NCBI GenBank assembly: GCA_019112635.1
Contig: DXIX01000028.1
Coordinates: 47,971-111,970, forward strand
Reading direction: 5' to 3'
Length of the DNA stretch: 64,000 nucleotides
DNA from: Candidatus Blautia intestinigallinarum
GTDB lineage: Bacteria > Bacillota > Clostridia > Lachnospirales > Lachnospiraceae
Below, in pieces: positions 22,758 through 32,377 of this stretch; position 1 is the stretch's first letter; every line of letters starts with the position of its first letter. Below the pieces are notes generated by a model. That model was not told the DNA's origin and searched no databases. It saw only the letters and a program-made list of their open reading frames with translations. A program made the position numbers and the translations under genes.

Positions 22758-23306
22758 TCAGGCAATCAGAAAACAGCTGGTATAAGCGATCGTGCAAGGA
22801 CCATAATAATAAGGAAGCTGGTTATCCTGGCAAACCTGGGTCACCAGCATCCCGTAAGCCTCCATGGAAGCAAAGCTCTGACCAGGAAAACGGCAGGGCT
22901 CATCCGGATAAGTACAGGAAACACACTTGGTACAAGCCCCTGCGCCGATAGCCAGCATTTCTGGATAAACCGGACGCAGCAGCTTCTCCAGTTCCACAAA
23001 ATGCTTTTTGTGGGCACTCTCCGCCTCCATCATTCCCTCTCCATCCAGAGAATCCTCCAACTCTCCCACCGTCTGAACAAGAATTCCCCATTGATACCGG
23101 CGAATTTTCTTCTCACATTCTTCCAGGCTTCCACAGGCCGGAGGGCAGTTCCAGCTTTTGTCATACATATGGCAGGAATTGCTGGCACACATCTGCCGTA
23201 CTTCCGGCATCAGCTGAATGGTGGACACATCCAGAAACGCCGCATGTGTAAACCCTGTCTCTTCTGCCATCTTCTTCAGTCTCTCAAATTCCTCGTTCTT
23301 TGTCAC
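22758..23306 (-). CDS. DUF2284-like cysteine-rich metal-binding protein
   Basis: Multiple conserved Cys: CNYDKSWNCPPACGSLEECE-like region and GACTKCVSCTYPDEPCRFP. Confidence 0.78.
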   Translation of the reverse strand: MTKNEEFERLKKMAEETGFTHAAFLDVSTIQLMPEVRQMCASNSCHMYDKSWNCPPACGSLEECEKKIRRYQWGILVQTVGELEDSLDGEGMMEAESAHKKHFVELEKLLRPVYPEMLAIGAGACTKCVSCTYPDEPCRFPGQSFASMEAYGMLVTQVCQDNQLPYYYGPCTIAYTSCFLIA

Positions 23307-24914
23307 TTATCCTTCCTCCTCATCTTGTTCCGGAAATTCCAGCTCGTCCACAAAGCAATCCTGAAATTCCGGGATCACCGCTAATTCCAGAAAATCCACG
23401 TTACTCATAAGAATCTTTGTCTTCTCCATCTCTCCTCGGTTCAAAAGTGCCAGCTTCGCGCCTTCCCCGGCCGCATTTCCCACTGGAACCACTCTGTTCC
23501 TGAGTTCCGGGGGAAGAAGACCGATGTCACAGGCACTCTTTGGGTCCATATAATTGCCGAAAGCACCTGCTATGTAGACTGTCTGAATCTGTTCATGGGA
23601 AATTCCCAGCTCCCGCTCCATGAGAAGAATGCCTGCCGAGATTGCCCCCTTCGCCAGCTGCACTTCCCGGATATCCTTCTGTGTCAGATAGACAGAATCC
23701 TCCTGCGGATCAAAAAGAAATACCGGCTTCCCATCCCGCATGGCCAGATGTTCGCTCCAAGTTTTCTTTTCCCGTGCTGCCTCTTCTGGAGTGAGCAGAC
23801 GTCCGGATGACTCCATCAAACCGGCACAAAGCAGGCAGGCAATGGTATCAATCAGACCGGAGCCGCAGATCCCAACAGGATTTCCCCCTCCGATCACAGA
23901 GTAATGAAATCCACGCTCATTCCATGTCACATGATCGATAGCTCCCTGGGCGCCCCGCATACCGCATTCAATCTTCGCTCCCTCAAAAGCCGGCCCTGCC
24001 GCTGTGGAACAACAGATCAGCCTCTCTCTATTTCCCAGAACCAGTTCCCCATTCGTTCCGATGTCAAGCATCAATGTAATCTCTTCTTTCTGATCCGGCT
24101 GAATCGTGAGGATACATCCCATCGTGTCCGCTCCTACAAAACCTGCAATCACCGGAAGAAACATCAGCTCTCCCTGGGGATGGATGTGAATCTGATATTT
24201 TGCAGCCTGATCCCGGATCAATCCCCTCTGATAGGGCTCATAGGGGGCACGCACCAGGGAATCCATGGGATACTGGAAAAAGATATGGTGCATACAGGTA
24301 TTCCCCACCAGACAGATCTGTATGATCCTCTCCCTGTCAATTCCAGCCTTACGGCTCAGTTCCCCGATCAACTCATCAATTGCCCCGTGAATACAATCCG
24401 CCAGTTCCCGGCTTCCATGTTCCAGATTATAGTTGGCCCTGGAGATCACATCTGCTCCATAGGCCGCCTGAGGATTCAGGCTGCTGGCCGTACACAGCTG
24501 CTCCCCATTCGCTCCGTCCAGCAGATAAGCGGCAATGGTCGTCGTTCCAATGTCAAAAGCCGCCAGATAATAATTTTCCAAACTGTCCAGGTCAATATTC
24601 TCCGGGAGAGAAGGCGCATAGGAAACCTTCCGGATACTGGACGTGGTCAAAATACGATGATTCCCCGCACTTTTCCCAATATCCACCCAGAGATCCGAAG
24701 TAATCTTTGTCTGACAAGCTTTGACCTCCTGCCAGCTGTCGCCATCCGGCGATATTCTCACCAGGCATTTTCCACAGGTCCCCTGCCCGCCGCAGGGTGC
24801 ATCCAGAAAAATCCCCGCCTGTTTCAGAGCTTCCATAAGCGTCTGCTGTCCTGTCACATCTGCCGTCCGATTGTCTTGAAGAAAAGTAAGTCTAAATGTC
24901 TGTCTCATATCCAA
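23307..24914 (-). CDS. ASKHA/DUF4445 corrinoid-activator-like protein with N-terminal 2Fe-2S ferredoxin domain
   Basis: APCGGQGTCGKCLV ferredoxin motif; AAFDIGTTTIAAYLLDG and LMLDIGTNGELVLGN ASKHA blocks; stop abuts the DUF2284 start. Confidence 0.88.
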   Translation of the reverse strand: MDMRQTFRLTFLQDNRTADVTGQQTLMEALKQAGIFLDAPCGGQGTCGKCLVRISPDGDSWQEVKACQTKITSDLWVDIGKSAGNHRILTTSSIRKVSYAPSLPENIDLDSLENYYLAAFDIGTTTIAAYLLDGANGEQLCTASSLNPQAAYGADVISRANYNLEHGSRELADCIHGAIDELIGELSRKAGIDRERIIQICLVGNTCMHHIFFQYPMDSLVRAPYEPYQRGLIRDQAAKYQIHIHPQGELMFLPVIAGFVGADTMGCILTIQPDQKEEITLMLDIGTNGELVLGNRERLICCSTAAGPAFEGAKIECGMRGAQGAIDHVTWNERGFHYSVIGGGNPVGICGSGLIDTIACLLCAGLMESSGRLLTPEEAAREKKTWSEHLAMRDGKPVFLFDPQEDSVYLTQKDIREVQLAKGAISAGILLMERELGISHEQIQTVYIAGAFGNYMDPKSACDIGLLPPELRNRVVPVGNAAGEGAKLALLNRGEMEKTKILMSNVDFLELAVIPEFQDCFVDELEFPEQDEEEG

Positions 24915-24986: not shown

Positions 24987-26159
24987 TCATCGGCTTTGGG
25001 AATCTTTCCGTTCATACATTTTCGTCACAGGCAAAATACTCATTCCGGCAATCCATGAGATCACCACTGCCGCCAAAAACATCTTTTTCCCCGAAAATCC
25101 AGATACCAACAGTGCGGACAGAAACTGGCCCAAAAACATGGCCATGGTACACAGGCTGATGTTGGTTCCCTTATTCTTTGGAGTGCTCTTTCTCACAACC
25201 AGGCTGTTAAAGAGAGGAGTGGAAAGCCCGAATCCTGCTCCGGCCAGTAACACCGCAGCTCCCAGTGCTGCTATATGTCCTGACAGAAAATAGATGAGAA
25301 ATGCCGCGCCATAACAGAAAAACGCAATCACCAGACAATTTTTCTCGTGTATCTTCGCGACAATTTTAGGCATCACACCTGCGGCCAGCACAGCAACCAG
25401 ATCCAGAACCGCCAAATAATATCCCGTGAAGGACGGACTATACCCCAGATCATTCTGCAGATAGATCGGCAGGGACACCATCGCTGTGAAAAACATCAGC
25501 ATGCCAAAAAATGCAATCAGCAGTACCAGCCAGACCGGAACTCCCTGCTGCTGGAAAGAATCCTGTGTATCCTGCACCTCTTCCTCTGCTTTTCCACATT
25601 TCGGTACGAATAACAGCAGCATGAAAAATGCCACGAAACCCAACGCATAAATAAAAAACGGATATCGCCATGAAAAACCTGCCAGCATACCGCTGATACT
25701 CAGGAAAATCACACCTCCCAGTTCCATCGACATTCCCTGCAGGGCAATCATTTTCAGCTGCTTCTCTCCTTGAAAGAACACGGTAATCAACGCCACACCT
25801 GCGCTCATAATCGCCGCGGTAGCCGCCCCCAGAAGAAACCTGTCGGCAAAAATTGCCGCTGCATTGGGCATGAAAGCCCCTGCCACACCAAACAATCCAT
25901 AGAACAAAAGTCCAAAGAATGCCGTATAATATGGTCCCTTCTTGTCTATCAGTTTTCCAAACAGCAGTGCCGTGGCCGTCACCCCGAGAGCCGGCGCGGT
26001 GACAAGCCATGACGCATAATTTCCAAGACCGTACACCTCCCCCAATTCCGGCAACGCAGGAGTGATCGCATTGCCGACCATCACCGTCAGACTGCTCGCC
26101 AGCATAATAGCCACGACTCCTGGTATTCCGATTTGCTTTTTTCTTCCTTTCTTTTTCAT
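24987..26159 (-). CDS. MFS transporter (drug-efflux-like)
   Basis: 12 TM; motif-A-like GKLIDKKGPYYTAFFG; 390 aa. Confidence 0.88.
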   Translation of the reverse strand: MKKKGRKKQIGIPGVVAIMLASSLTVMVGNAITPALPELGEVYGLGNYASWLVTAPALGVTATALLFGKLIDKKGPYYTAFFGLLFYGLFGVAGAFMPNAAAIFADRFLLGAATAAIMSAGVALITVFFQGEKQLKMIALQGMSMELGGVIFLSISGMLAGFSWRYPFFIYALGFVAFFMLLLFVPKCGKAEEEVQDTQDSFQQQGVPVWLVLLIAFFGMLMFFTAMVSLPIYLQNDLGYSPSFTGYYLAVLDLVAVLAAGVMPKIVAKIHEKNCLVIAFFCYGAAFLIYFLSGHIAALGAAVLLAGAGFGLSTPLFNSLVVRKSTPKNKGTNISLCTMAMFLGQFLSALLVSGFSGKKMFLAAVVISWIAGMSILPVTKMYERKDSQSR

Positions 26160-26260
26160 CGAAAACTCCTTTCCCTACCTGATGCCGGCCCGAATCCCGC
26201 GCCAAGGCTCCCAAGCGAATCTTAAGAGAAAAAGACCTCCTGCCAGCCGATTTTGAGCCG

Positions 26261-26287
26261 AAAAAAAAGACATCTACGTCAGATGCC
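26261..26287 (-). terminator. Intrinsic terminator in the 5' leader of the MFS gene
   Basis: Minus strand GGCATCT-GACGT-AGATGTC followed by 8 T. Confidence 0.78.
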
Positions 26288-26339
26288 TTCCTGTCTCTTC
26301 CAAAAAATGAGAGTCAAAAAAAGCATCCAAGCTGCTTCC

Positions 26340-26442
26340 TTTCTCCTCTCATCCAGACTTTACTGTCGGCTCCGGGCTTTGACCGGATTAGCTTTCGCTC
26401 GCGGGCTACACCGCCGGTAGAATATATTCTTTTAGAAGAAAT
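26340..26442 (-). ncRNA. FMN (RFN) riboswitch aptamer, divergent variant
   Basis: Minus strand reads TTTCTTCT...ACCGGCGGTGTAGCCCGCGAGCGAAAGCTAATCCGGTCAAAGCCCGGAGCCGACAGTAAAGTCTGGATGAGAGGAGAAA, matching the RFN core; P1 pairs TTTCTTCT with AGGAGAAA. Confidence 0.9.
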
Positions 26443-26541
26443 ATGAAAATAATTATAATCTGGAAAATTCTAAAAGTCAATACGATCCCCCCATTTCGCA
26501 GCGTCTCTCCCGCGGCTGCCTCGAATATTCAGAAGAAAGTA

Positions 26542-26612: not shown

Positions 26613-28001
26613 ATGGTAAAAAACACTTTCATGAAGACAAAACCCATCTTTCCCCTCCTGGTCTCTATGGCAGTTCCTATGATGCTGTCCATGTTGATTC
26701 AGTCATTATATAATATTGTCGACAGCATCTATGTATCCAGGCTGGGGACGGACGCCCTGACTGCAGTATCTCTGGCCTACCCCCTTCAGAATATCACCAC
26801 ATCTGTCTCTGTCGGAATCGGTGTGGGAATCACCTCCTCCATCTCCATCCATCTGGGCGCCCAGAATCAGGAGAAGGCCAACCGGGCAGCCACCATAGGC
26901 ATTGCTCTGACTGTTTTGCACTGCCTGCTTTTCATCGTGGCGGGAATTCTGGTTACCCGCCCATTCCTGAAACTGTTCACCGACGATCCGGCCATCTTAT
27001 CCGATGCCTGTGACTACACCTATATTGTCCTGTGCCTCTCTTTCGGATGTCTTCTCCAGGTAACCATGGAAAAGATCTTCCAGGGAATCGGTGAGATGCG
27101 GCTGACCATGTACCTGCTGGCATCCGGCTGTATTATCAATATCATCCTGGATCCCATCCTGATCTTCGGTCTTCTCGGATTTCCGGCCATGGGAGTCAAA
27201 GGTGCTGCCATCGCTACCGTTATCGGCCAGATTTGCGCCTTTTTGCTGTACGTCGTGGTCTATCGGAAAAAGAAGCTGGCCATCTGCATCCATCCGAAAT
27301 ACTTATGTCTGGATAAGCGGATCATTCTGCAGATCTACAGTGTGGGAATTCCATCCAGTATCATGATGACACTGCCCTCGATTCTGGTCAGCATACTGAA
27401 CCGGATCCTGGCTTCCTTCTCCAGCGTCTATGTGGCTGTGCTGGGAGTCTATTTCAAACTGCAGACCTTCATCTACATGCCTGCAAACGGACTGGTTCAG
27501 GGGCTGCGCCCCATCCTGGGCTACAACTATGGAGCCGGTGAAGTCAAACGTGTGAAATCCTCCATCCGCTACAGCCTTCTGATGACTGCGGGGCTGATGC
27601 TTCTTGGCACCCTCCTGTCCCTTCTGGTTCCTTCACAGATCCTGTCCATGTTCGATGCGGACGAGGAACTGATGCAGGCAGGAGTGACCGCCCTGCGCGT
27701 CATCAGTCTGGGATTCCTGGTCTCCACGGTGGGAATCGTCTACTCCGGGACCTTCGAAGCCCTGGGAAAAGGCCGTCAGTCTCTGACCATCTCCCTGCTT
27801 CGCCAGTTCCTGCTCACCATTCCCCTGGGATATCTCTTCTCGAAGATCTGGGGACCGGTAGGCGTCTGGGCAGCCTTTCCCGTGGGAGAACTCACAGCCT
27901 CCATTGTGGCTGTCTTCCTTCTCAACTCCTTTGAGGGAGGGAAATATTCTCCGTTCAAAACCCACGAGCAGGTCTTGACAGGAAAATCTTCCACCGTCTG
28001 A
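26613..28001 (+). CDS. MATE family efflux transporter
   Basis: 12 TM; PMMLSMLIQSLYNIVDSIYVSRLGTDALTAVSLAYP block. Confidence 0.92.
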   Translation: MVKNTFMKTKPIFPLLVSMAVPMMLSMLIQSLYNIVDSIYVSRLGTDALTAVSLAYPLQNITTSVSVGIGVGITSSISIHLGAQNQEKANRAATIGIALTVLHCLLFIVAGILVTRPFLKLFTDDPAILSDACDYTYIVLCLSFGCLLQVTMEKIFQGIGEMRLTMYLLASGCIINIILDPILIFGLLGFPAMGVKGAAIATVIGQICAFLLYVVVYRKKKLAICIHPKYLCLDKRIILQIYSVGIPSSIMMTLPSILVSILNRILASFSSVYVAVLGVYFKLQTFIYMPANGLVQGLRPILGYNYGAGEVKRVKSSIRYSLLMTAGLMLLGTLLSLLVPSQILSMFDADEELMQAGVTALRVISLGFLVSTVGIVYSGTFEALGKGRQSLTISLLRQFLLTIPLGYLFSKIWGPVGVWAAFPVGELTASIVAVFLLNSFEGGKYSPFKTHEQVLTGKSSTV

Positions 28002-31250: not shown

Positions 31251-31817
31251 ATGGAAAAGAAAAAATTGTGGAAGCTCTTTCTCTCCACTTTCTATCTCAG
31301 TGCATTCACCTTCGGAGGAGGCTACGTCATTGTCACCCTTCTGAAAAATAAATTTGTAGATGAACTTCACTGGATTGATGAGAAAGAAATGTTAGACCTG
31401 GTGGCCATCGCCCAGTCCTCTCCCGGGGCCATCGCCATCAACGGAGCCATCGTCGTCGGCTATAAGCTGGCAGGTCTGCCAGGTGTTCTGTGCGCAGTCA
31501 CAGGAGCCGTCCTGCCCCCTCTGATCATCCTGACCGTAATCTCCGGCTTCTATAATCTCTTCATCGAGAATGCCATCATCAAAGCTTTGCTGTCAGGTAT
31601 GACCGCCGGTGTCGGGGCAGTCATCGTCTCCGTTGTCTATGATATGGGAAAAGATGTGGTCAAATCCCGGGATCCCGCTCTGATCATCGCCATGGCCGCC
31701 GCTTTCGCAGCAGACTGTTTTCTCAAAATCAATGTCATCTATCTCATTCTTGCCGCTGCTTTGGCCGGAATCCTGCGGACTTTATACCGGAAGCATAAAA
31801 AAAGGAGGCTCTTATGA
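31251..31817 (+). CDS. Chromate transporter family protein (half-size)
   Basis: FGGGYVIVTLLKNKFVDELHWIDEKEMLDLVAIAQSSPGAIAIN. Confidence 0.9.
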   Translation: MEKKKLWKLFLSTFYLSAFTFGGGYVIVTLLKNKFVDELHWIDEKEMLDLVAIAQSSPGAIAINGAIVVGYKLAGLPGVLCAVTGAVLPPLIILTVISGFYNLFIENAIIKALLSGMTAGVGAVIVSVVYDMGKDVVKSRDPALIIAMAAAFAADCFLKINVIYLILAAALAGILRTLYRKHKKRRLL

Positions 31818-32377
31818 TTTATCTGCAATTGTTTCTTGCTTTTCTTCAGATTGGCGCCTTCAGCTTTGGAGGCGGATACGCGGCTCTTCCCCTGATACAG
31901 GATCAGGTCATTGACCGTTTTCACTGGATGACGCTCTCCCAGTTCTCCGATCTGGTCACCATCTCCCAGCTCACGCCCGGCCCCATCGCCGTCAATGCTG
32001 CCACCTTCGTGGGAAATCAGACCGCTGGCCTTCTGGGTGCCCTGGTGGCAACGGCAGGGTGCATTCTGCCATCCTGCATTTTTGTGACAGCCCTTGCCTG
32101 GCTTTACACCAAGTACCGCAGTCTGGATCTGCTTCAGGGTATGCTGGAATTCCTAAGACCCGCCGTAATCGCTATGATTGCCGCGGCAGGTATCGTCATC
32201 TTGCTTCCCGTCTTTTTTGCCGACGGACAGCTTCACTTCCTGGACCACAATTTTCAGCTTAGGCCCTTCCTGCTCTTTGCCGCCGCCCTCTTTCTCCTTA
32301 GGAAAAAAAAGATGGATCCCGTCCTGGTAATGGTACTGTGCGGGATTGCAGAAGCTCTGTTTCATGTGATACAATAG
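31814..32377 (+). CDS. Chromate transporter family protein (half-size)
   Basis: FSFGGGYAALPLIQDQVIDRFHWMTLSQFSDLVTISQLTPGPIAVNAATFVG; overlaps first half by 4 nt. Confidence 0.9.
   Translation: MIYLQLFLAFLQIGAFSFGGGYAALPLIQDQVIDRFHWMTLSQFSDLVTISQLTPGPIAVNAATFVGNQTAGLLGALVATAGCILPSCIFVTALAWLYTKYRSLDLLQGMLEFLRPAVIAMIAAAGIVILLPVFFADGQLHFLDHNFQLRPFLLFAAALFLLRKKKMDPVLVMVLCGIAEALFHVIQ

Follow-up and report, generated by a model that had tools for sequence, protein, structure and literature searches.

A probable variant FMN riboswitch, with predicted ON logic, upstream of an efflux-like MFS gene in gut Lachnospiraceae

In published structures of FMN riboswitch aptamers, the flavin ring sits between A48 and A85, beside G98 and A99, and the FMN phosphate is surrounded by G10, G11, G32, G62, and G84 (PMC7573352). 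G11 and G62 reach the C31-G84 and G32-C83 pairs through the minor groove in matching fashion (PMC3764141). A rare variant class of these riboswitches, first described in Clostridioides difficile, is also known; it includes the "subtype 2" variant of Atilho, Perkins, and Breaker (2019), as summarized in PMC11477304. The C. difficile variant works as an ON switch, with lumichrome and lumiflavin as ligands but not FMN (PMC11477304). Here we describe a probable occurrence of this class in Lachnospiraceae, a family new to it.

The window (the whole 64,000-nucleotide stretch analyzed) comes from a 2.1-Mb, 75% complete genome of Candidatus Blautia intestinigallinarum; among named organisms, the nearest relatives sharing the MFS gene are Mediterraneibacter. 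The first-pass annotation had read an RFN-type aptamer on the minus strand, and a covariance-model search bore this out: Rfam family RF00050 matched at 26337 to 26444 (minus strand) with 73.2 bits (E value, 5.1e-16), above the curated gathering cutoff of 66.2 bits. The ligand-contacting positions were not all conserved. In the whole window, only this aptamer and one tRNA passed Rfam thresholds. A sigma-70-type promoter (TTGACT-N17-TATAAT, 26452 to 26480, minus strand; 11 of 12 consensus matches) would place the transcription start a few bases 5' of the aptamer. The aptamer comprises P1 to P6, as supported by the RF00050 score and by covariation among relatives. Its P1 5' strand (UUUCUUC, 26435 to 26441) pairs with the 3' strand at 26346 to 26340 (GGAGAAA), which is common to P1 and to an anti-antiterminator hairpin described below. 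The sequence departures quoted in the first-pass annotation were found as read, with J1/2-P2-L2 being UAAAA-GAA-UAUA-UUC and the P5 hairpin being UCCGG-UCAAAGC-CCGGA (26371 to 26387, minus strand). J1/2 (26430 to 26434) thus differs from the A/G-GGG-C-A of ordinary elements, and P2 (26420 to 26429) closes a 4-nucleotide L2 in place of the ordinary 7-nucleotide UGAAAUU T-loop.

All isoalloxazine contacts are kept in the window element, namely A48 (26399), A85 (26366), G98 (26353), and A99 (26352). Of the phosphate contacts, G32 and G84 are kept, G10 and G11 are lost within the altered J1/2, and the conserved G62 is replaced by A (26389). All 141 distinct ordinary elements compared from Clostridia had G at position 62; the six Lachnospiraceae-type variants all had A, as did Clostridioides elements. 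A99, A85, and A48 were invariant across all variants. The retention of ring contacts together with the loss of phosphate contacts fits a loss of FMN selectivity. As judged from the sequence, the phosphate-binding pocket has probably been rebuilt, and a flavin other than FMN is the likely ligand. Outside the pocket, UGAAA T-loops are absent from both L2 (UAUA) and L5 (UCAAAGC), and L6 and L3 are ordinary. The altered loops had been taken for the two arms of a single loop-loop pair, which is wrong, because the tertiary contacts in FMN aptamers are L2-L6 and L3-L5 (PMC3764141). The two T-loops are altered separately, L2 being shortened to four bases and L5 carrying substitutions.

A protein search recovered orthologues of the downstream MFS transporter with 63 to 83% identity. 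The variant aptamer precedes the MFS orthologue in four other genomes (loci L064, L065 [M. glycyrrhizinilyticus], L066, and L068); it was absent upstream of two further MFS relatives, L067 (within about 200 bases upstream) and L069. L067 (Ca. M. intestinavium) carries the closest MFS orthologue, and positions 1 to 202 of this locus contain an inverted repeat (GAGACAGTCC...GGGATTGTCTC) at the expected leader site, followed by sequence nearly identical to that of L065. Gene neighborhoods differ among the MFS loci; since neighboring genes are not common to them, the switch and the MFS gene form a conserved unit that travels together. Among 64 genomes of the genus, both the variant and the MFS gene were found in the window genome only. 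Two weak FMN matches (38 bits each) occurred in the same genus: L071 (G192:C6:145099-145163), apparently truncated, and L072 (G163:C39:2496-2619), strongly degenerate. A more distant variant (L163) with J1/2 GGAAAU and G62A lies before a MATE efflux gene in another Lachnospiraceae genome (G351). Efflux-type transporters lie downstream of the variants, MFS in five loci and MATE in L163. Directly 5' of the latter switch, L163 (348 to 968) encodes a flavodoxin-fold protein of the FMN_red family.

Covariation supported the fold, with 98.3% of cells paired and 19 double-sided changes, versus 7.2 in shuffles. P2 covaries among the relatives (GAA/UUC, GAG/CUC, GGA/UCC, and GGG/CCC), P5 covaries in the L066 and Clostridioides rows, and C31-G84 becomes U-A in L066 and L163.

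The distribution of the variant was surveyed with a signature search built on A62. The window genome was the only match among 397 Lachnospiraceae genomes; L163, whose L6 lacks one base, was missed for that reason. Matches were also obtained in 2 of 386 Clostridia genomes and in seven of the eight genomes of a single genus (genome size, 4 to 5 Mb); the search of the other 63 Peptostreptococcaceae-type genomes gave none. Viral contigs yielded three matches, all without FMN context. Total covariance score fails to part distant variants from ordinary elements: under a model of the window group, the Clostridioides and L163 elements scored 67 to 84 bits, like ordinary ones. Position 62 and J1/2 were chosen as criteria for this reason. 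Short matches (107 to 112 nucleotides) in G600, G524, G338, and other genomes were considered as variant candidates, and all were ordinary.

One genome of this 4- to 5-Mb genus, G751, carries a variant (L184; J1/2 AGAAAU, G62A, and L5 UCAAAUU) before an EmrB/QacA-type MFS gene, and its ribU and ribD each follow an ordinary FMN element, which makes three elements in all. This arrangement matches the one reported for C. difficile (PMC11477304), and from the three FMN elements and their gene context, among other features, the genus of G751 is very probably Clostridioides. A corresponding set of three is present in the window genome, where ordinary switches serve ribU and ribD-ribE-ribBA and the MFS gene has the variant. 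Because the ordinary ribU and ribD switches are kept, FMN sensing in the window genome is already covered.

Between the aptamer and the MFS gene lies an expression platform whose parts were identified by sequence and folding (all on the minus strand). An intrinsic terminator (GAAGGCAUCU / AGAUGUC, then 8 T) occupies 26261 to 26290, and an antiterminator element, GGAUGCUUUU (26319 to 26328), nearly duplicates the terminator 3' arm and pairs with 26290 to 26281. In the minimum-energy fold without P1 held, an anti-antiterminator hairpin (AUGAGAG..AAAGGAAGCA / UGCUUUUUUU..CUCUCAU, 26307 to 26352) consumes the antiterminator element together with the P1 3' strand and some of the GGAUGAGAG core. Two earlier proposals held up here, a terminator with 8 T at 26261 to 26287 and, in computed folding, the pairing of GATGC (26327 to 26323) with the terminator 5' arm.

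We modeled the folding of a transcript ending just before the terminator 3' arm, with P1 either held or free. With P1 held, the terminator 5' arm and GGAUGCUUUU paired with a computed probability of 1.00, which fell to about 0 when P1 was free, and a P1-dependent difference of such size arose in 0 of 300 linker shuffles. With P1 held, the 5' arm was sequestered in all seven variants (computed probabilities of 0.75 to 1.00). The opposite pattern was computed for the ribD switches of the window genome and G751 and for the ribU switch of G751, in which the arm was sequestered at 0.00 to 0.07 with P1 held and at 0.74 to 0.86 otherwise; the ribU switch of the window genome was a less clear control (0.54 with P1 held versus 0.90). 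The Clostridioides platform gave 0.75 in both P1 states, so this simple model under-calls at least one published ON switch, and the L068 platform likewise changed little between states. L066 differs from the others jointly in its terminator, antiterminator, and anti-antiterminator sequences, and the arm sequences covary across loci, with a GGCAUCU set in four loci and a GCACUC set in L066. Since the arm is tied up whenever P1 is in place, ligand binding should permit transcription. On this folding model, the window leader appears to be laid out as a transcription ON switch, its logic reversed relative to most of the ordinary ribD and ribU switches of the same genomes.

The putative controlled gene (24987 to 26159, minus strand) encodes an efflux-like MFS transporter of 390 amino acids (Pfam MFS_1; E value, 9.9e-43), in agreement with the first-pass annotation, and is preceded by a ribosome-binding site (AAAGGAG, 26166 to 26172, minus strand). 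Its product is weakly similar to multidrug efflux models and to the solved QacA-type and EfpA pumps, and the gene is not one for riboflavin synthesis or uptake. About 70 bases downstream of the MFS gene, on the same strand, are genes for a RACo-like corrinoid reductive activator and a DUF2284 protein (22758 to 24914, minus strand), which are not beside the MFS gene in the other loci. A MATE efflux gene (26613 to 28001, plus strand) diverges from the riboswitch in the same intergenic region; it is 29% identical to the MATE gene of G351, which has a variant switch of its own. Farther along, two adjoining short membrane proteins (31251 to 32377, plus strand) resemble, by sequence, a split chromate-transporter (ChrA-type) pair.

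We consider it likely that the window element is a Lachnospiraceae variant FMN riboswitch through which a non-phosphorylated flavin would turn on an MFS pump that exports it; both the ligand and the exported substrate are what we infer. Riboflavin, lumichrome, lumiflavin, or hydroxyethylflavin would stack between A48 and A85 and fix P1, which would withhold the P1 3' strand and the GGAUGAGAG core from the anti-antiterminator hairpin. The freed GGAUGCUUUU would then pair with the terminator 5' arm and allow RNA polymerase to read through, so that the MFS pump would be made and the compound exported. Without ligand, the anti-antiterminator would form, the terminator would fold, and the pump would stay off. 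Because details of the window group differ from the Clostridioides element (J1/2, G10, and L2), the group could bind something else. It is possible, as a tentative extension, that the Lachnospiraceae elements are a distinct subtype (4-base L2, G10 lost) for a flavin catabolite of the anaerobic gut, such as lumichrome or hydroxyethylflavin, and induce a dedicated exporter. A gut Lachnospiraceae species converts riboflavin to lumichrome without oxygen (2026 preprint, PMC12934955), and according to earlier work cited there, hydroxyethylflavin has been reported from a relative. Either compound could be the natural signal. Work cited in the same preprint indicates that human MAIT cells are dampened by lumichrome. 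A second flavokinase gene, a possible mark of riboflavin degradation, was not found in the 75% complete window genome, which has one copy.

The same class and ON logic might instead serve a planar aromatic toxin or antibiotic-like compound, the switch then acting as an alarm for xenobiotics in general that governs a multidrug pump. The varied types of the downstream pumps (the window MFS, EmrB/QacA-type MFS, and MATE), with their multidrug-like similarity, would suit such a role, as would an open side-chain pocket, given that ligands with aromatic side chains already fit the FMN aptamer (PMC7824784). We nevertheless regard this as unlikely, because A99, at the flavin ring edge, and the stacking A85 and A48 never vary among the variants and the C. 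difficile relatives bind lumichrome and lumiflavin (PMC11477304).

Two further readings take the departures from the consensus to be of little consequence or to be damage. The element could be an FMN riboswitch of the ordinary kind whose mutations are tolerated and which represses a riboflavin importer at high FMN. This would be in keeping with a score above the Rfam gathering cutoff, and a C. difficile MFS of similar kind was formerly annotated as a riboflavin importer (PMC11477304). The loss of three phosphate-contacting guanines, including one present in every ordinary element compared (141 of 141), the predicted ON logic, and the presence of ribU already under an ordinary switch make this very improbable. 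Decay into a non-functional element, to which the lost T-loops and J1/2 guanines might point, is more improbable still: the same changes, with compensatory pair changes, are kept in five to six genomes, the terminator and antiterminator sequences covary (the GGCAUCU and GCACUC sets), and the promoter, terminator, and gene are intact.

On our preferred reading, a Lachnospiraceae variant FMN riboswitch, the variant class reaches beyond Clostridioides and takes in gut Lachnospiraceae, a second, distant MFS group, and MATE pumps; the elements also provide independent sequences for ligand tests on this class. Among known systems, the yjdF (azaaromatic) riboswitch is similar in binding flavin-like aromatics (PMC7266159), but it is an unrelated family, and an Rfam search gave no match to it in the window. 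With the ordinary FMN riboswitch (RF00050), the window element shares the six-helix fold, conserved core, and ring-binding bases; it differs in lacking the phosphate-binding G10, G11, and G62, in its altered L2 and L5 T-loops, in its predicted ON rather than OFF logic, and in preceding an efflux-like gene rather than ribU or ribD. Alignment of the window element with the Clostridioides elements (L184 and L193 to L197) showed common pocket changes, namely G62A and an A-rich J1/2 replacing GGG. Also alike are a G-to-C change at position 2 of L5, the kept ring contacts, the downstream MFS efflux-type gene, and, as computed here, a terminator-based ON layout with a duplicated arm. The membership in, or kinship to, the variant class that was proposed earlier is supported by those pocket changes, the L5 change, and the duplicated arm held in common with L184. 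The window group is set apart from the C. difficile variant by its L2 shortened to 4 nucleotides, a J1/2 that is one base shorter with G10 lost as well, a short P4 with a GNRA cap, an MFS that is only distantly related (23% identity), and its Lachnospiraceae host.
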